Positions 6,391-21,606 of a stretch of DNA of 23,510 bases are shown here, one piece after another. Made by a program: the position numbers and the translations under genes. Within the stretch, counting starts at the first letter, position 1; each line of letters begins with the position of its first letter. The notes below the pieces were generated by a model, which ran no database searches, was not told the DNA's origin, and worked only from the letters and a program-made list of their open reading frames with translations. The DNA is from Dichomitus squalens LYAD-421 SS1 (Eukaryota > Basidiomycota > Agaricomycetes > Polyporales > Polyporaceae): NCBI RefSeq assembly GCF_000275845.1, contig NW_006766979.1:1-23510 (forward strand), written 5' to 3'.

Positions 6391-7205
6391 GGACCATTCA
6401 TGCTTATGTTTCGGCGCGCCGGTGCACCTCTAGACTCGTCGAGTTGCTTTCTCTGGGCTCTGCTTGTTGTGGTTGTATACTATGTATATGCTGTGTGCGA
6501 TGATTGTACTTTGCCATTCATGCTCGTAATGTAAGACGTACTATCGCTTCTCCCTTGTGCCGCCTCCCACCCGGACTGATCATGTCTAATGTGATGTGAG
6601 TTTCCTTATTTCTAGTTATGCCTGAGTTGACGATCTTTGAGTTCTAGAAGGGGCATTCCGCTCTCGAGCGACTCAATCGCGCGTAGAACTGCTTCTCGGT
6701 GCTTGCGTCGTCATTCGGCGGGTCGTTGATTACGCCAACACAACATCGGCATGTGTCGCCGTATGGTTCAACGTCATGCTCCCCCCAGCGTAATATACCG
6801 ACCGGCGAAGAAGAGTGGGCGAACCGATCTATGTACCGATCGGAATATGAAGCGCGCATAAACACTTCCCGTAAGGGGAAACATTCCCGCATTACCCCCT
6901 ATTATTCCTGGCTTGTATGCTGATCCGACTGTCGCCTGTTAATTCACACTCCTCCAGTGGCGGCATTGAACAATGCGCAAGCTACGGCTTGTGCAGAAGC
7001 CGCTCCTCGCCGCGAGGGCAATTACACTTGCGTTCGGCTCACGAAGCCCTGTTCCTCCGGGATCTCGTTATCCACGGGCCACAGGTAAGATGCCATTATG
7101 CAGCTTTGTGTTCAGTGGCTGCCGGTCTGACGCGTTCAGCTGGCTTGCTTTTCCAGGCGGCATGGGAGTAAGAACCTAGAATCTTCGCGTCTAAGCGCAT
7201 CGCAC
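6391..7205. other. Intergenic interval between the RING and aldo/keto reductase genes
   Basis: About 815 bp with no supported gene. It holds the 3' UTR of the RING gene (T-rich just after the stop) and the upstream region of the reductase. Short open frames on both strands show no motifs. Confidence 0.4.
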
Positions 7206-7213
7206 ATATATAA
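7206..7213 (+). promoter_or_regulatory. TATA box of the aryl-alcohol dehydrogenase gene
   Basis: atatataa lies about 114 bp upstream of the ATG at 7327. It is followed by a pyrimidine-rich leader (ttctatctctcacttcatcg) typical of well-expressed fungal genes. Confidence 0.5.
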
Positions 7214-7326
7214 TCCCAGGCCTATGGCTGGAAGGCCGACTGCAACACATCACCACTGTCTTCTGCCTTGTAGACTTCCCAGCACTCTCCGTCGTACTTC
7301 TATCTCTCACTTCATCGTCCACCAAC

Positions 7327-8884
7327 ATGTCCGCTGCGCACCTTTGGGCCCCCGCCGGAGCGCCTCCGACCAAGCTTGGCCGCCACCGCCGTCTCAGCGA
7401 CAAGGCTGGGGTCCACGTCTCGCCCATCTGCCTTGGCGGTATGAGCATCGGAGACAAGTGGGCCAGTTATGGCATGGGAGCTATGGACAAGCAATCCAGC
7501 TTCAAGCTTCTCGACGCCTTCTACGAGGCTGGCGGTAACTTCATCGACACGGCCAACAATTATCAGGACGAGAGTTCTGAGGCATTCATCGGGGAATGGA
7601 TGGAGACCCGCGGTATCAGGGACCAGATCATCATTGCTACCAAGGTAGGTGGCTCGAGGCAACACCGAGCTATTCGCGTGCTAACCGGGTTGCCGATGTT
7701 GTCAGTATTCGACCAATTACAAACGCGGTCGCCAGGACGTCAAGCAGCATTCGGCATATGTCGGGAACCATATGAAATCTCTTCATGTCTCCGTCGAGGA
7801 TTCCCTCAAGAAGCTTCGGACCAGCTACATTGACATACTCTATGTACACTGGGTCAGTAAGGGCTGTATCTATAGCATGACCGTTACTGACGTTGTTGTA
7901 CGCCGACTAGTGGGACTGGCAGACTAGCGTCGAGGAGGTCATGAATGGTCTCCATGCCCTTGTTCTGGCGGGCAAGGTCCTGTACCTCGTATGTTCCCAC
8001 ATCTCTCCCACCTCCAGTATTACTCAAGCCCTCGGTACATGATCCATCATGCAGGGTATATCCGACGCCCCGTCCTGGATTGTCAGCCGCGCCAACCAAT
8101 ATGCACGTGACCACGGCAAGACCCCTTTCTGCATCTATCAGGGGCTGTGGAGTGTCATGCACCGTGACCTCGAGCGTGATATTCTTCCAATGGTCAAGGC
8201 CGAAGGCATGGCGCTCGCCCCATGGAATGTGCTTGCCTCCGGTAAGATCCGTACGGACGAGGAGGAGCGCCAGCGCCGCGAGACAGGCGAGAAGGGTGAG
8301 TGCGATGTGCAACTAGTAGCGATAGCATCCGTTGACTTTTGCGTATCATTAGGACGGACGGTCTTGTCTCCTAACTGGGAGCGCACTGAGGACGAGCGCA
8401 AGGTCGTGAAGGTTCTAGAGGAAGTAGCTGCCCAGGTTGGGGCGAAGACTGTTCAAGCTGGTGAGCCAAATTCTCTAAATTACACGGCATGGAAATGTTT
8501 GACTCACGTATTCATACCGTCCAGTTGCCATTGCGTATGTGATGCAGAAGATTCCGTACGTATTCCCCATCGTCGGAGGGCGAAAGGTCGAGCACCTGTA
8601 TGCCAACCTTGAGGCCCTCGATATCGTGCTCACCGGGGAGCACATCCGCAAGATAGAAGGCGCCGTGCCTTTCCGTGCTGGCTTCCCTTACGACATGATT
8701 GTGAGCTTAGATATCATCCGCAGAACACGAGATATATGCTGATCGGGCGATTCTTTATCAGGGCGACGGGACGTCCTACAATGTTGGCTACGCCAATGCA
8801 GGCCAGTATGACTTGTGGCCTGAACGTGCGGCCATCCGTCCGAATCAGCAGAACTCGGGGAATGCTGTCATGCCGAGCTTATGA
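7327..8884 (+). CDS. Aryl-alcohol dehydrogenase, aldo/keto reductase family (7 exons)
   Basis: Proposed exons are 7327-7644, 7706-7852, 7911-7988, 8055-8295, 8353-8460, 8525-8700 and 8762-8884, giving 396 residues, about the family's usual length. All junctions are GT..AG and in phase. The AKR barrel carries the catalytic tetrad: D74 and Y79 in [10 protein letters not shown]106 in IIIATK and H154 in [38 protein letters not shown] and the cofactor-side [12 protein letters not shown] are further landmarks of fungal aryl-alcohol dehydrogenases. These cytosolic NAD(P)H enzymes reduce aryl aldehydes such as veratraldehyde and are linked to lignin-derived aromatic turnover. The substrate here is inferred from family only. 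The C-terminal tail ([13 protein letters not shown]) is divergent. The gene converges on the DUF6533 gene, with about 440 bp between stop codons. Confidence 0.93.
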
Positions 8885-9322: not shown

Positions 9323-11078
9323 CTACGGCCCCGACGAACCTCCCTCAGACGACGTCCCGTACGATGAAACACCTGTTGACTTGGCGGAAGATCCATGCGG
9401 GCCAGTGTTTGCGCGCCAGGGCAAGTCACTGAGCTCCGTGGCGCCGCTGCTCTGGTTTCGTAGCAGCCGAGGGTCGCGAAGATTGAGCATGAGGCGCGTG
9501 ATGAGGGAGCTTGCTATGCTAGATGCGCAAGAGGAAGGCGATTAGCGTGTCACTACCTAGAGTGGAAGAGCACGGCGGGATTGTGGAGGGAAGGACGCAC
9601 ACGTTCGTGATCGTTACGCTGATGCCACGAGTCACAGCCTGTGGGGTACCGATCAGTACTCAGTGTTGAGGCTTCCTGCTGGGCTACTCGGGCGCGCTCA
9701 CTTGGGCGAGCTAAAGGTGCAGTAATATTGGCAATCGATATCAGAAGGGTGTCTGGAGGTGGGGAGGGAACAACATACAAGACATGTCAAGATATTGCAC
9801 ATATGGCACACGAGTAGCACCCTACGCGTTCCGTGCAATGAGGTCAGGTTGGGAGTTATCTGGCTCTGGTCAAGACGACATACGCAAAGTAAAATGCCCC
9901 TGATATTCAGACGATGCAAAGGCCTGAATTCAGCGTCCTATTCGTCTTCATTCGTCGTGAAACTCACCATCGCGGAGCAACACGCCCATCAAGCTCCCTC
10001 GCCACCGCGATCCGCTTCCGAGTACTCGATACACCGTCAGTGCGAATACGGTTGTATCCCAAGCTAGCACGCTCGCCCAGACAAACGACAGGTCTAGAGT
10101 CACGTCGTAAGCTTTGACATCGTGTAACACACAAGCCGAGATATAATGCTTACATTTGCCTCTGCGGGGCAAAAATCAGTGTGGGGACTTAGCAGCAGGC
10201 AAGGTTGGACTTACTGAGCCTCAGTCATTGTAAGGTCGCAACCGACCCCCGGTATGCCTGCCATGGTCTTGTCACCAGAAGGCTGGTGCCAAGCCTGCGA
10301 TACCGCCCACTAGAGAACAGTACAAGCACCGGCAGACGATTTGTGTAGGTATCATGGGTATGGATATTTGAGAGGGTCGTACTCACAGCACTGATGGCGC
10401 AGCAAACGAGACACAGGCAGGAGAGCGCGGAAGTTATCCGACGGTTCCCATGATACAAAGCGTGTATACGGAATAATTGCAATCCTGGCCACGTAGTAAG
10501 TGCCAATAGTGAAAAAAAAAGCCAGGTATAAGACGTACCTGCGACGATGACTTGCGTGATCCCGGCTAGCAGCTGGTGGTACATCTGCACCCTCGAGCAC
10601 CTTCACGCGAAGAGGTGTCAGCCATGATAACCATCACATTGCCTCCTCCAGCACTTACAGCTATATCGGCAGAATATATGAGCGAATCATCATTCATAGA
10701 CCCGCGTAGCAAACTTACTTCTTGGTTATGAGTACCATAAAATTCGTATAAGACAGGGATGTGGCCAAATAGCGCCAAATAGCGGTTGAAATAGAAAATG
10801 AAAGAGGCAAAGGAAAAGCGACCCTTCCAGAACCTTTCTACTTCGGCAGAATATGTCAGGGTGTAGTCAAAGTAGAGAATGCCTGTGGAATATAACATGT
10901 GTTCAACCCCACTGGTCGGCCGACGTTTGTCGAGATGCTCACCGAATGCTATGGCGGATGCGATGCGGATGTCATGGTCTGACTCGGCGCTGCGATAGGG
11001 GCAGGTCGGTCATGTCAGTCAAATGGGCAGCTCAGGCTCAGCGACCACAGTCACTCACATCACAAGGATGCTGTTCAT
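9323..11078 (-). CDS. DUF6533-domain multi-pass membrane protein with micro-exons (14 exons)
   Basis: Proposed exons, in transcription order: 11078-11059, 10989-10943, 10882-10719, 10660-10659, 10600-10539, 10484-10387, 10309-10215, 10161-10154, 10093-9968, 9899-9884, 9821-9779, 9710-9702, 9638-9601 and 9518-9323. They give 307 residues with every phase consistent. The N-terminus has the DUF6533 signature: SDHDIRIASAIAFGILYFDYTLT, broken here as SDHDIRIASAIAF then GILYFDYTLTYSAEVERFW. Further landmarks are RYLALFGHIPVLYEFY, VQMYHQLLAGITQVIVA, SFVWASVLAWDTTVFALT and the C-terminal SSLITRLMLNLRDP. About seven hydrophobic segments imply a multi-pass membrane protein. The family is abundant in mushrooms, often receptor-like in topology, and has no known function. 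Exons of 2, 8, 16 and 9 nt are unusual; the first three are needed to hold the frame. Start chosen at 11078 because the ATG precedes exon 2 in phase. Confidence 0.83.
10659..10660 (-). other. Proposed 2-nt micro-exon (CT) of the DUF6533 gene
   Basis: Two 58-nt introns, 10718-10661 (gtaagt..atag) and 10658-10601 (gtaagt..gaag, with a gctgac branch site), leave only CT between them. Joined to the next exon this reads L-C-S-R-V-Q-M-Y-H-Q, matching the family's Cys then LQ.YHQ pattern. The main alternative is one long intron ending at the CAG before ATG-TAC-CAC at 10584, which would delete the Cys and the residues up to MYHQ. Confidence 0.5.
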
Positions 11079-15973: not shown

Positions 15974-17653
15974 CTACGCTGAAGCCCTCGACTCCTCGCG
16001 GCGAAGGACCTTCCACATGAATTCGGCCCACTCCTGCCACGGATCCCCCCGAGCCCCGACGCCCCTCGACCACTCGTCGGCCTCCCCAAGTCTCTCCAGC
16101 TCCCGCCACTGCTCCCTCAGCGCATCCTTCTGCTCGAACAGCCGCTTCTCCCACTCCGGGACCCGGTACTCGTCCCCCATGAACTCGTGCAGCTCGTCCC
16201 GGTAGTCGAACATCTCCTTGAACCCGAACCGGAACCACGCGTCCGCGATCGCGATCTCGTTGTCGCCCTTCTCCGCGCGGAACGCCTGGTACCGCGCATC
16301 GATGGCCGCGGCCTCGCGCTCGAGGTCGAGCGAGGACGGGTCCGCGAAGACCTTGAGCGCGGCGCGGGTCTGGACCTCGGTCAAGGGGAACGGCGCGACA
16401 CGCAGGGGGAGCCCGAGGAAGGCGAGGCTGGAGGGCGGGTAGGAGGTGACGAGCGGGAACATGGCCTTCGCCATCGGGAAGACGTGGTAGGTCGAGTTGT
16501 ACAGCACCGGAGGGACTGGCGGGACGCGCGGCGGCATCGCGGCGACGACTTCGGGTTCGGATAGGAAGGGGAAGTTGAATTGGTACCCGGTCGCGAGCAC
16601 GACGTGGTCGATCCCAGACACGGTCGTGCCGTCTTCGAAGACGACGTCTCCCTTGTCGGCGTCGAGGTACTCGGCCACGCGTCCGCGTTTCTTGAGCTTA
16701 CCGCCATTTAGGTCTTCCGGGGCGGCATTCGTGATGGAATGGATGACCTCTGTCGCAAACGGCTGTGTCTCTGCAGCGACGTCCTGTCCGCTGTACCCGC
16801 CTCCGATGACAAGCAGTTTGCCAGTGTAATCATCGGGGCGGCGGTACCAAGCCGTATGAGTGACCTTGCCTTTCTTGATCCACGCCGCGAGGCCCTTGAG
16901 GTCCGGTATGCGAGGAACACGGAAGTGTCCGTTCGCGACGAGAACGAGGTCGAACGGGATCGTCTCGTCCCCATCCTCCCCCGCCACTGTCACGTTCCAT
17001 TTACTTGACGTCGCGTCCCAGTGCACGGCAAGCACAGAAGTGCGCAACCGGATGTGCGGATTCAAGTCGAAATGTCTCGCGTAGGCCTCGATATACTCCA
17101 GGACGACCTTTGCACGTGGGTAGAGCGGCGTCGCGGGTGGGAAGAGGTACGAGCTGTAGCACATGAGTGGGTGGGGCGTGTTCGCCGTCAGCGAGTCGTA
17201 CAGCGCGGTCAGTGGAGGATCTCCTTCGGCAGGAGCGGGCAACCTGGAAGTTATATCGTCTTGATGAGCATACATGTAATGTCACTGGGAAAGAGATGAT
17301 GGTACCAAATCCCTCCAATCTTCTCTCGCGCTTCGAACGCAGTTACCTTCCATTTGCCCTCCTTGAATTGAGGCGAATCCTTGACGATCTTGAGCGCCCC
17401 AAGGCCGACTGGCCCTACGCCAATGATGCAAATGTGTTTGGTGGAAGACTCCGACTCGGGAGCTGCGGGTGCAGTTCCTGGAACAGGCAATGATGGTTAG
17501 AACAACGTACGAACTGATCATGAGGGTGACCAAGAACGATCGCAGATGACGTCTCCAGGGGTCCATTGGCATCACGACGTCGTTTCACAACCACAACGGC
17601 GGGCCCAGGAGTGGTCGTCATCAACACTCACCTGTAGAAGATGAAGATCCCAT
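15974..17653 (-). CDS. Flavin-containing monooxygenase (3 exons)
   Basis: Proposed exons are 17653-17632, 17477-17306 and 17243-15974, giving 487 residues. The FAD-binding Rossmann motif is ICIIGVGPVG (G27, G29, G32) with the acidic end of the second strand at FEAREKIGG. The FMO-identifying motif appears as KKGKVTHTAWY (about 189-199). The NADPH site is VIGGGYSG (about 210-217) and the late LATGY is at 281-285. These place it in the class B flavin monooxygenases (N,S-oxygenating FMO or Baeyer-Villiger relatives), soluble or loosely membrane-attached. The first exon, MGSSSSTG in a 22-nt exon, is inferred from a gtgagt donor at 17631 and a ctaac..ttccag acceptor at 17478. A simpler start at 17490 (MPVPGTAPAA) is also in frame and gives 484 residues. 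It is transcribed divergently from the MDR reductase gene. The substrate is unknown. Confidence 0.92.
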
Positions 17654-18605: not shown

Positions 18606-19941
18606 ATGCCTCCCGCCACCCAGAAAGCACTCGTCCTTCCAGCCGAGAAGGCATCCTTTGAACTTGTCACCGACTGGCCCGTGACCCTGCCAGGGCCGAC
18701 AGAGGTTCTCGTCAAGCCCACTTCTGCTGCGTTGAACCCCGCGGATGCGTTTATCAAGGACAACGGCGGTGGACCGCTCGTACCTGCATACCCGTTCATC
18801 CTCGGGGTCGATGGCGCCGGTGTTATCGAGGAGGTGGGCTCTGAGCTCAACAATGTCGCGAAGGGAGAAAGAGTGTAAGTTATCTTTGCTCAGTTACATC
18901 TCTAAATCAGATTACGCAGTACACTCACACGAGTGGACAGGATGGTTCGTGCCGGGCTCGACGTCAAGCGTTCAACGTTCAAGGAATATGCAGTATTTCC
19001 TGCCGCCGAAGTGTTGAGGGTATGTCCTGTGCAGGCGGTCCGCCACGGTGTAAACTCATTGACTGGATTTCAGTTCCCTGCCAATATCTCTTTCGATGAA
19101 GCGGCGACCATCCCTCTCGCCTTTGCGACGGCCGTCACCGGCATCTGGGCTCATGGAGAAGGCAACCACTCTGCCGAACTCACCCCTCCCTGGTATGAGG
19201 GAGGCACGACGAAGTATGCGGGCAAAGCTGCGCTCATCCTTGGGGGCTCTACGTCCGTCGGCCAGTTCGGTGCGTACTGTCGCATCCCTTTCTTTAATTT
19301 GCAGCGACTGACTTGTGCGCACCTTACAGTCATTCAATGTGCGCGTATGCAAAACTTCTCGCCCATCATCGCGACCTCATCCATCAAGCACGAGGAATAC
19401 CTCAAGTCCCTTGGCGCGACCCATGTCATCGACCGTTCTCTCTCTTTCGACGAGATCAAGAACACGCTCTCGTCGCTTACGGCAGGCACCACGATCGAGC
19501 TCGTCTATGACCCTTGGGGCAGAGACCGCGACTCCCACCGATTCGGTTACAGTGTCCTTGCGCCTGGTGGAGCGTTCGTCCACGTCAATCCCTTTGCCGC
19601 AGATTGGCTCGCTGACCTGGTCGCGGAGAGCGAGAAGAAGGGAGAGGACAAGCGGGTGGCGCTCTCATGGTCCAGCTACAATAGCCCCGGAAACAAGGAG
19701 CTGGGGAAGGAGATTTTCGACAGGCTGCCCGGATGGCTCGAAACGGGCGTCATCGTGGTACGTGATACCGCACTGCTGCCTATGGTTCCCGAGCGGACTG
19801 ATTTCATGACCTGGTTGCTAGCCAAACAGGTTCGAGGTGCTTCCGAACGGTCTTGCGGGGGTCGATGCGGGCCTGGAGAGGATGTCGAAGGGCCTGGTCA
19901 GCGGGATAAAGCTTACTGTGCATCCTGCCGAGACCCTGTGA
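18606..19941 (+). CDS. Zinc-independent MDR oxidoreductase, quinone oxidoreductase/enoyl reductase-like (5 exons)
   Basis: Proposed exons are 18606-18874, 18941-19019, 19074-19269, 19330-19757 and 19822-19941, giving 363 residues. The N-terminal GroES-like fold shows ALVLPAEK, VLVKPTSAALNPAD and YPFILGVDGAGVIEEVG. Next comes FPANISFDEAATIPLAFATA, and the NADPH-binding motif ALILGGSTSVG at about 169-179. The C-terminus has PNRFEVLPNGLAG and AGLERMSKGLVSGIKLTVHP, typical of fungal alcohol dehydrogenase-like / ToxD-type enoyl reductases. The Cys cluster for structural zinc is absent. The last intron acceptor is set at 19821 because it yields PNRFEVLPNG. The exon 2 acceptor is less certain: 18940 is used, and the cag at 18917-18919 is also in frame. 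Such proteins reduce quinones or activated double bonds in the cytosol. The substrate is unknown. The divergent FMO neighbour may be co-regulated. Confidence 0.92.
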
Positions 19942-21606
19942 GCGTGTACGCGCCACTTTGTGCATGTATCTGCTCTGCTGCCCTTCTAAACGAACGCTCC
20001 CCGCAAGTAGGCTCTGTCGCAACCAAGTACTCTTTGATACTGATACTGAATTTGAGGTGTTGCGATGAACATCATCGGAACCTCCATGCACACCACATTC
20101 ACCGTGCTCGTGTATTCCCATCTCGCGCGCCCAGCAGTCTCGCACCACACATCACTCTCGCTATGTCGCACATGGGACTCTTACGTTTGTCCCACTGGCT
20201 CTGCGTCGGGCTCCGGCTAGGCCGTAATGAATGAATCGCTCCTTGGCCTTCATATGTATTGTTTTGCACCAGCCAAATGCCACCCCATGTTTGAAGTCTT
20301 GTGCATCTTTCCCTCTTGCCCGCGACTCTCCCTCCATCTCCATCCTAGATGACCTATCTTAATAGCCGTCTCAGAGTGTCTTGGACATCTTCCCTGCAGT
20401 TCCCCTCAGTAAGATACGACAGGCCCAGACGTTCATACTCGAGCATGCAGATATAATGACGCTGGAATGTGCTTCAACATTGAAGTCATGTGGCGGTATA
20501 GTGTGCGAAACTCCGGATTCCTCCCTTGCTTTGACGAGCGACCGAGATCATAAATACGTAATAGACAACCCGGTCTCTTAAATAATCTGTTTGCTACAAG
20601 CTAGGTACGTCCGAATGGACCATGAACAGGTTGGCAGCCAGGATGAAACTTCTGTCAAGCTCTCTACCCAGGATAACTTAAGCAGGCGGCTCATCAATAT
20701 GGTGCTCACCTCCGTGAGCATACAAAATCTCTCGAATGGTTGCCATTGTCGGATGTGATTGGCTCATCATGCTGCGTGTACGGTTAATTCATACTCAAGA
20801 CACTCATATCAAGCTCAGACTTCTTATGGCTCAGATTATTTCCAACGAAGACGAGAATGCCTGAGACGTGCATTTGGTAGTACCTTGCGAGTACATTCCA
20901 CACTTCTCGCGCTGTGGCACAACTTGTTGATTTTCTCACTGAGTACTTGTACTTGGTCACCTCGATAATTCCACGCAGTATATTTGCCAAAGAGTCCACC
21001 TATCTGGATTCTTTTCGTGCGAACCCTTGAGATTTTGTCACCATGGAGGACGACACGACGCCGGTGCGTCCATATGTCCCCTTGGTCTCGCAGCTTGGCG
21101 TCCGAATCAGAATTGGGCCCCGCCGCGCACGCAGACTCCAGTCAATCCCACGTCGGGTCTAGGTGACGGGAACGTCAATGAGATACATCAAAAATCTATG
21201 TGGGTATCGGCAATACGGGTATGTACTGGTAGCACAGGATGACAACGGACCGCGACAGTATGATCAAGACAGGTCTAAGGCCGTGACTCGGTATCCAGGG
21301 TGCATCCCGGGGCCAAAGATGGGGGAGTGCTGGAGAGATAAAAGGCGTCCCCTGGTCTGACGACGTGGCTCCACGAAGGCAAACTGGACGAGATGGGGCG
21401 ATGGGATGGGTGGTGGGGTGCCAGGAAGGAGAATGATAATAGCACGAGAAAGGCGCGAAACACGGAGAAGGAGGCTAGTAGACGAGGTGACGAGGAGTGG
21501 CCATTATATAGGAGAACGGTTGCAGCCGGAATGACCATCGCGGTCTTCGCCGCCGGGAAGCGCAGTGAGCGTCTGATATAAATGAGCGATATGAATGAGT
21601 GAGCAG
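19942..21606. other. Intergenic interval between convergent MDR and FunK1 genes
   Basis: About 1.66 kb between two convergent stop codons. No intact gene is supported. It is AT-richer than the coding regions. A possible decayed retroelement fragment at 20784-20999 (minus) is listed separately. Open frames at 20381-20581, 21163-21360 and 21275-21538 have no motifs. Confidence 0.4.
20784..20999 (-). mobile_element. Possible decayed Copia-type gag (UBN2-like) remnant
   Basis: On the minus strand a short frame reads DSLANILRGIIEVTKYKYS, then VRKSTSCATAREVWNVLARY. This resembles the Copia gag pattern of a helix ending in A..IL..I, a short loop, then TAKE.WD.L...Y. Flanking sequence in the other frames is broken and no protease, integrase, reverse transcriptase or LTR is seen nearby. 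The likeness is short and could be chance. Confidence 0.25.

Follow-up and report, generated by a model that had tools for sequence, protein, structure and literature searches.

The stretch of DNA analysed here (the window), 23,510 nucleotides (nt) from the polypore fungus Dichomitus squalens LYAD-421 SS1 (NCBI RefSeq assembly GCF_000275845.1, contig NW_006766979.1, positions 1 to 23,510), carries on its minus strand, from position 11078 to 9323, a gene of the DUF6533 family with four extremely short exons of 2, 8, 16 and 9 nt, designated A, B, C and D in the direction of transcription. We propose with high confidence that this is an intact gene in which A, B and C are inherited and probably constitutive exons, while D is common to its close kin, and that these exons are probably handled by intron definition, i.e. 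each intron of about 55 nt would be recognised on its own, making exon length nearly irrelevant.

Exon structure of the DUF6533 gene

Fourteen exons join into a coding sequence of 924 nt that ends in a TAG stop codon and encodes 307 residues; it is interrupted by 13 short introns, and no stop codon or frameshift is crossed. All four micro-exons are directly preceded by AG and directly followed by GT, and the adjoining introns measure 53–68 nt, which confirms the coordinates and splice sites given in a preliminary description made from the sequence. The name micro-exon was set at no more than 15 nt, a limit that C just exceeds. A, B and C have canonical splice sites on both sides and are needed for the reading frame; D also has complete splice sites, and is required not by the frame but by conserved residues.

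This model was recovered independently with a spliced aligner written for this analysis along the lines of GeneWise, which allows GT-AG or GC-AG introns of 40–250 nt and exons of 1 nt or more and does not reward short exons. The first profile was built from 41 of 56 homologues; excluded were 11 sequences that looked partial or broken and the four known proteins of Dichomitus. Alignment to this Dichomitus-free profile picked, unprompted, exactly the exons described before, including those of 2, 8, 16 and 9 nt; the outer ends differ, as the alignment extends 15 nt upstream beyond exon 1 and stops at 9416 within the last exon. Aligning the gene to DUF6533 homologues and comparing intron positions, a check that had been suggested at the outset, thus returned the same model, with the micro-exons coinciding with sites shared by the family.

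Exon 1 (20 nt, 11059–11078) opens with a start codon at 11078–11076 that is shared with the deposited proteins P0001 and P0002, and is followed by exon 2 (47 nt, 10943–10989) and exon 3 (164 nt, 10719–10882), which holds nearly the whole DUF6533 match. Micro-exon A (CT, 10659–10660) leads from phase 0 to phase 2, and together with the next G encodes a Leu preceding a conserved Cys. Exon 5 (62 nt, 10539–10600), which has the same length in most paralogs, exon 6 (98 nt, 10387–10484) and exon 7 (95 nt, 10215–10309) separate it from micro-exon B (AGGCAAAT, 8 nt, 10154–10161; phase 2 to 1), which in more distant paralogs measures 2 nt at the same site and in the same phases. After exon 9 (126 nt, 9968–10093) comes micro-exon C (16 nt, 9884–9899; phase 1 to 2), encoding most of the sequence GAFYFA, and after exon 11 (43 nt, 9779–9821) micro-exon D (CTCGCCCAA, 9 nt, 9702–9710; phase 0 to 0), which encodes LAQ and has equivalent residues in the homologue P0102 discussed below. 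The gene is completed by exon 13 (38 nt, 9601–9638) and exon 14 (196 nt, 9323–9518), which runs to the stop codon at 9325–9323.

When A, B, C or D is forbidden, the alignment of the window gene loses 21, 46, 39 or 19 bits, respectively. The best bypasses of A, B and C drop 6, 10 and 4 residues; with D forbidden, the aligner takes another 9-nt exon and not an exon-free parse. The earlier statement that the frame can be carried through only if the micro-exons are included is therefore too strong, since in-frame bypasses exist, e.g. from the donor at 10718 to the acceptor at 10584 around A, but conserved residues are then deleted or replaced. This particular bypass represents an alternative in which there is no 2-nt exon, and a single intron of 134 nt (10718 to 10585) is removed to give a protein without LCSRVQ. 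Its donor (GTAAGT) and acceptor (GCAG before 10584) are good, its frame is open, it is the best parse once A is forbidden, and the deposited LYAD-421 model likewise lacks the 2-nt exon. It is, however, the parse that scores 21 bits worse, and its intron would be more than twice as long as the intron medians of the family (54–61 nt).

Recurrence of the micro-exons in the paralog family

The genome searched (40.3 megabases in 116 contigs, the window lying on contig C96) contains at least 150 DUF6533 matches, with groups on contigs C14, C32, C43, C44, C72 and C2. Of 98 loci collected, nine were dropped: L009, L010, L011, L013, L016 and L035 are the window gene itself, L029 and L036 repeat L014, and L037 repeats L008. 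The 89 paralogs parsed comprise 88 of the 150 matches plus L018, and were chosen by best DUF6533 score or closeness to the window gene, not at random.

In a first pass with the Dichomitus-free profile, A was found in 63 of the 89 paralogs as a 2-nt exon at the same codon, again leading from phase 0 to 2. B (phase 2 to 1) was present in 66 paralogs, 50 of which have the 2-nt and 16 the 8-nt form, and 75 paralogs have a C of 16 nt (phase 1 to 2) and 15 a D of 9 nt. A refined pass over 90 genes, in which the 73 more distant ones were aligned to a second profile (partly circular, see below), gave a nearly uniform exon structure across the family: A of 2 nt in 78 genes, B in 81 (64 with 2 nt and 17 with 8 nt), C of 16 nt in 78 and D of 9 nt in 15. 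Two 2-nt exons are present in the same gene in 60 of these 90 genes. The short and long forms of B have both phases in common and differ by exactly two codons. Away from A and B, internal exons of 2 nt are rare (only 2 of 978). When the 2-nt exon is forbidden in each gene separately, the median loss is 16 bits at A (n=78) and 17 bits at B (n=64). The introns around A and B have median lengths of 54, 56, 55 and 59 nt, and the other introns of 58 nt. The density of tiny exons, described initially as striking for one gene, is thus a family-wide architecture that recurs in the paralogs parsed.

Genes that lack one of the introns display the same nucleotides within longer exons. L017, L031 and L047 have no intron behind the 2 nt of A, resulting in an exon of 64 nt (2 + 62), and in L059 and L038 it is the preceding intron that is missing; in all five genes the same codon before the Cys is ordinary coding sequence. 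Similarly, C and D are fused into their neighbours in L024 (142 = 126 + 16 nt and 52 = 43 + 9 nt). A few D. squalens paralogs truly lack the Cys after A.

One DUF6533 gene, L067 (C7:677208-680108), has a quite different exon structure without A, B and C, and may belong to another branch of the family.

Controls and sequence constraint

As a control, the stretch between the outer splice sites was shuffled with its dinucleotides kept, in 51 kin loci for A (306 runs) and 52 for B (312 runs). A 2-nt exon on the same outer sites appeared in 10 of 306 shuffled runs for A and in 11 of 312 for B. If exons of any length up to 30 nt (2–20 nt for A) are counted, the numbers rise to 41 of 306 for A and 39 of 312 for B. 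The real trimmed sequences kept the micro-exon in 43 of 51 and 43 of 52 cases. These counts imply that a tiny, frame-keeping exon at a single site is not negligible by chance, whereas the same 2-nt exon across kin is.

The chance occurrences at A, of a 2-nt exon as well as of some tiny exon, would fit the idea that the window gene is a decaying copy, the micro-exons of which are accidental patches that restore an open frame. Yet all four lie at family sites, no stop or frameshift is crossed, and P0001 from another strain is 97% identical over its full length. A pseudogene was rejected because the frame is open throughout and its conservation extends to another strain, and we regard this explanation as having almost no chance of being correct.

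The sequence of A itself is constrained in the family. Of the 78 genes, 40 have Ser at A, encoded by AGY in 39 of them and by TCN in one, against a ratio of 576:1560 for Ser elsewhere in the same genes (p=5e-21). Furthermore, 30 of the 31 donors at A without G at position +5 follow an exon with G as its last base, and 24 of the 25 exons A that do not end in G have G at +5 (p=4e-6 for compensation). The same tendency, albeit weaker, is seen over all introns (p=0.0007). Compensation was also tested at site B and not found (p=0.54), so that this argument is confined to site A. Judged by these patterns, the 2 nt of A behave as would an exon end ahead of a donor. The aligner's preference for exons with AG at their end (at most about 1 bit, see below) is in our judgement too small to create the AGY and compensation patterns.

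The single 134-nt intron would leave unexplained this AGY bias, the 2-nt pattern in 63 of 89 paralogs and the fused genes, and would lose the Cys that is found in 17 of 17 transcript-like homologues (defined below). It was rejected on score, the conserved Cys and the family evidence, and we consider it very unlikely.

Among the site-A exons, 39 of 78 are AG (in loci such as L062, L065 and L069), giving AG-AG before GT. Slippage of the acceptor by 2 nt at such sites would yield a zero-length exon and a frameshift.

Order of splicing

Intron definition is in keeping with the short and uniform introns. Since an exon of 2 nt cannot hold the acceptor complex and the U1 small nuclear ribonucleoprotein (U1 snRNP) together, its two introns would have to leave sequentially. 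At A, the intronic donor score is 3.39 for the upstream intron and 0.03 for the downstream intron, and the upstream donor scores higher in 64 of 78 genes (p=2e-10). The difference is small at B (p=0.01), and a comparison at C and D revealed none. At site A the upstream intron, with the stronger donor across the family, would probably be removed first, after which the 2 nt would terminate exon 3 and offer the second, weak donor.

We favour, with some reservation, a reading in which two constitutive 2-nt exons at fixed codons predate the expansion of the family, the first of them being spliced upstream-first and its dinucleotide being selected as the docking end for the second donor. If true, a single genome would contain more than 140 exons of two nucleotides, and a large fraction of the family's deposited proteins would be wrong there.

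Stepwise removal of two successive introns is also a property of stwintrons, known from Hypoxylaceae and other fungi, and [D1,2] stwintrons are common in some fungi, according to the accessible parts of that literature. At site A a stwintron, or a zero-length ratchet point, would mean an internal intron lying within a splice element of an external one, with nothing retained between them; the adjacent introns, their stepwise removal and the AG that follows the acceptor AG in 39 of 78 site-A exons bear a superficial resemblance to this. In stwintrons, as described there, no coding sequence lies between the introns, whereas site A needs its 2 nt in the messenger RNA (mRNA): both introns are complete from GT to AG, the 2 nt keep the frame into a conserved exon, and the five genes missing one intron retain them as coding sequence. 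A stwintron was rejected because the 2 nt are needed, and an exon is left between the introns; this explanation is, in our view, highly improbable.

Homologues and deposited protein models

Several homologues are available as a long intronless full-length frame on a contig of about 1–3 kilobases, as in an assembly of complementary DNA, and are called transcript-like here. One of these, P0102, lies on a contig of 1,770 bases and shares 92% identity with P0107, an annotated protein of Fomes fomentarius. P0102 reads LPSPRCRQLQ and TFMAPNIGDS where P0107 reads LPSPRFLQ and TFMIGDS, so that the annotated model misses what A and D encode. A similar error at A emerges when P0196 is compared with the annotated Armillaria protein P0018 (96% identical). 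This points to an interruption of site A in Agaricales as well, although the 4,617-base contig of P0196 may not be a transcript.

To count such errors, a protein was called broken at A if it lacks either the residue of A or the Cys after it; at each site, proteins whose alignment fails to span the site were skipped. P0196 was excluded from the transcript-like set in these counts and included in the count of the residue at A, and P0050 and P0055 were excluded from the deposited set. None of 17 transcript-like proteins is broken at A, compared with 75 of 180 other deposited proteins (p=0.0003), and none of 18 at B, compared with 37 of 182 (p=0.03). Breakage among the deposited proteins is not significantly above that of the transcript-like ones at C (0/17 versus 19/170, p=0.23) and at D (1/17 versus 41/169, p=0.13). 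Further control places are broken in 0 of 174 (inside exon 3), 6 of 180 and 2 of 154 proteins. Gene sets of mushroom-forming fungi thus carry a recurrent error in DUF6533 proteins, with the share assessed as broken at A perhaps including some true divergence.

The micro-exons could also be subject to regulated inclusion and skipping, giving rise to different proteins or to an off switch by frameshift. Skipping of A, B or C alone would shift the frame and so act as an off switch, whereas skipping of D would keep it; the downstream donors of site A are weak across the family, and a regulated micro-exon has been reported in Trichoderma Xlr2 (PMC11121469, accessible part). The transcript-like homologues, as assembled full-length frames that favour the included form, are whole at A, B and C in 17/17, 18/18 and 17/17 cases, respectively, which speaks against this alternative. 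We consider it unlikely, although less so than the other alternatives weighed here, and constitutive inclusion of A, B and C in the mRNA of the window gene remains the reading that we prefer. D had been described as optional, which appears unlikely from comparison with its relatives: 16 of 17 transcript-like homologues hold its residues, 14 of 17 close genes (window gene included) have the 9-nt exon, and L024 has the same 9 nt in fused form.

For the window gene itself, the deposited LYAD-421 model P0002 (253 residues) goes directly from exon 3 to exon 7, so that exons 4 to 6 are skipped and 54 residues are lost; apart from this one gap it is equal to the spliced window protein. The model from the other D. 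squalens strain, P0001 (309 residues), has an extra VSL at the 2-nt exon. B, C and D are present in both. It had been anticipated that an automatic gene caller would probably break this gene, which is borne out at A, where P0002 and P0001 are both wrong. As both models include the exons of 8, 16 and 9 nt, only the 2-nt exon defeated the gene callers here.

For the paralog L020, the model from strain BD310 (P0094) keeps the residue of A, lacks B and D and has C garbled, and the models from two other strains lack A as well. The deposited D. squalens family models P0063, P0068, P0071, P0076 and P0083 break at A, B or both when compared with the nearest spliced paralog.

Observations weighing against the proposed reading

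Several observations count against an inherited, constitutive set of micro-exons and are collected here. Both deposited D. squalens models of the window gene that were examined lack exon A. The class of transcript-like homologues was assigned from the form of the contigs. Deposited proteins are also broken at ordinary places between A and B (35 of 180 and 32 of 182 at intron positions, 27 of 181 in the interior of an exon), in part because skipping at A removes whole exons. Moreover, 62 of 180 proteins lack the residue of A altogether, and the 75 scored as broken at A may include some in which the Cys is genuinely absent.

Within the family, 12 of the 90 genes parse without a 2-nt exon A: the five fused genes, two in which the pattern lies inside a longer predicted exon (L062 and L082), and five that parse otherwise (L018, L034, L049, L067 and L068, the last with only a partial parse). 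Forbidding the micro-exon costs less than 5 bits for 3 of 78 exons A and 3 of 64 exons B. The second profile was built from 59 first-pass predictions, which makes the refined counts partly circular, and the splice-site scorer, likewise written for this analysis, gives an exon with AG at its end an advantage of at most about 1 bit over one with neither base. Shuffled runs, with or without a micro-exon, score at least as high as the real sequence in 52 of 306 cases for A and 47 of 312 for B, since the first profile fits distant paralogs weakly. For weakly fitting paralogs the score alone is therefore indecisive, and the case rests on recurrence of the same exon. Finally, both donors at A in the window gene start with GTAAGT, so that the argument on the order of splicing rests on the family.

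Comparison with known ultra-short exons

The comparisons in this section refer to the accessible parts of the cited papers. Exons of one nucleotide have been described in plants, in Arabidopsis APC11, for which the authors propose intron definition and recursive splicing with the introns removed sequentially (PMC4674806), and in VPS55 (PMC8831610). Like exon A, these are essential to the frame, conserved and missed by annotation. They differ in being single plant genes with one 1-nt exon each, whereas here, within one fungal genome, 60 of 90 genes have two 2-nt exons each.

Two further cases are from Fusarium, which we take to be an ascomycete, and from Phanerochaete chrysosporium, presumably a member of the Polyporales as is D. 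squalens. The exon of one nucleotide in Fusarium CYP621A is supported by Sequence Read Archive (SRA) reads and was called the first in a fungal gene by its authors in 2026 (PMC12940212). As in the DUF6533 case, it is fungal, was found by comparison of homologues, lies between short introns and is needed to keep the frame; an intronless relative served as length marker. It differs in being a single set of orthologous genes with an exon of 1 nt. The P450 genes of P. chrysosporium contain micro-exons, the smallest of 6 base pairs (bp), which were suggested as a source of alternative splicing (PMC1184071). They resemble the DUF6533 genes in their many short introns, very small exons and large expanded family, but their micro-exons are scattered over families and are not fixed 2-nt exons at one codon.

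Exons of 2–5 bp in Arabidopsis, Drosophila and human are cited in the CYP621A report (PMC12940212), hence size alone is not new. A search of the literature on micro-exons in Agaricomycetes and on DUF6533, which covered few subscription papers or preprints, did not find the present architecture. Ultra-short exons are thus a known kind, and as far as the literature was searched, two 2-nt exons per gene at fixed codons across a large family of Agaricomycetes, with a splicing signature at the codon level, are new. Most cases so far have been single curiosities. The roughly 140 two-nucleotide exons, together with paralogs lacking either intron, offer a natural panel for studying how, and in which order, the spliceosome handles exons that are too short.

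The DUF6533 protein and its genomic neighbourhood

The Pfam domain PF20151 (DUF6533) matches residues 20–61 of the window protein with 39 bits (gathering threshold 24.1), corresponding to window positions 10767–10880 on the minus strand, just before micro-exon A. The Pfam model has 46 positions and ends short of site A; its shortness perhaps reflects the frequently broken protein models beyond that site. P0004, a homologue with 57% identity over 92% of the query, has an AlphaFold model (predicted local distance difference test, pLDDT, 87.5; predicted template modelling score, pTM, 0.84) with seven long helices, of which two are broken into pieces. On the basis of this homologue, the window protein is predicted to be a membrane protein with seven helices. 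Searches by fold and by sequence against solved structures gave at most weak indications as regards assignment as a receptor.

Two conserved Cys residues of P0004, 86 and 164, lie close to where helix 3 begins and in the loop that leads into helix 5. We assume these to be the places where class A G protein-coupled receptors (GPCRs) carry their conserved disulfide. In the accessible part of its description, the DUF6533 member SNB1 is an integral membrane protein with seven helices that is required for the patterning of fruiting bodies (PMC10949477).

Three open frames near the window gene match oxidoreductase-type enzymes, i.e. an aldo/keto reductase (7195–7830, plus strand), a flavin-binding monooxygenase (15977–17281, minus strand) and a zinc-binding dehydrogenase (18906–20231, plus strand), and form a small oxidoreductase neighbourhood around it.
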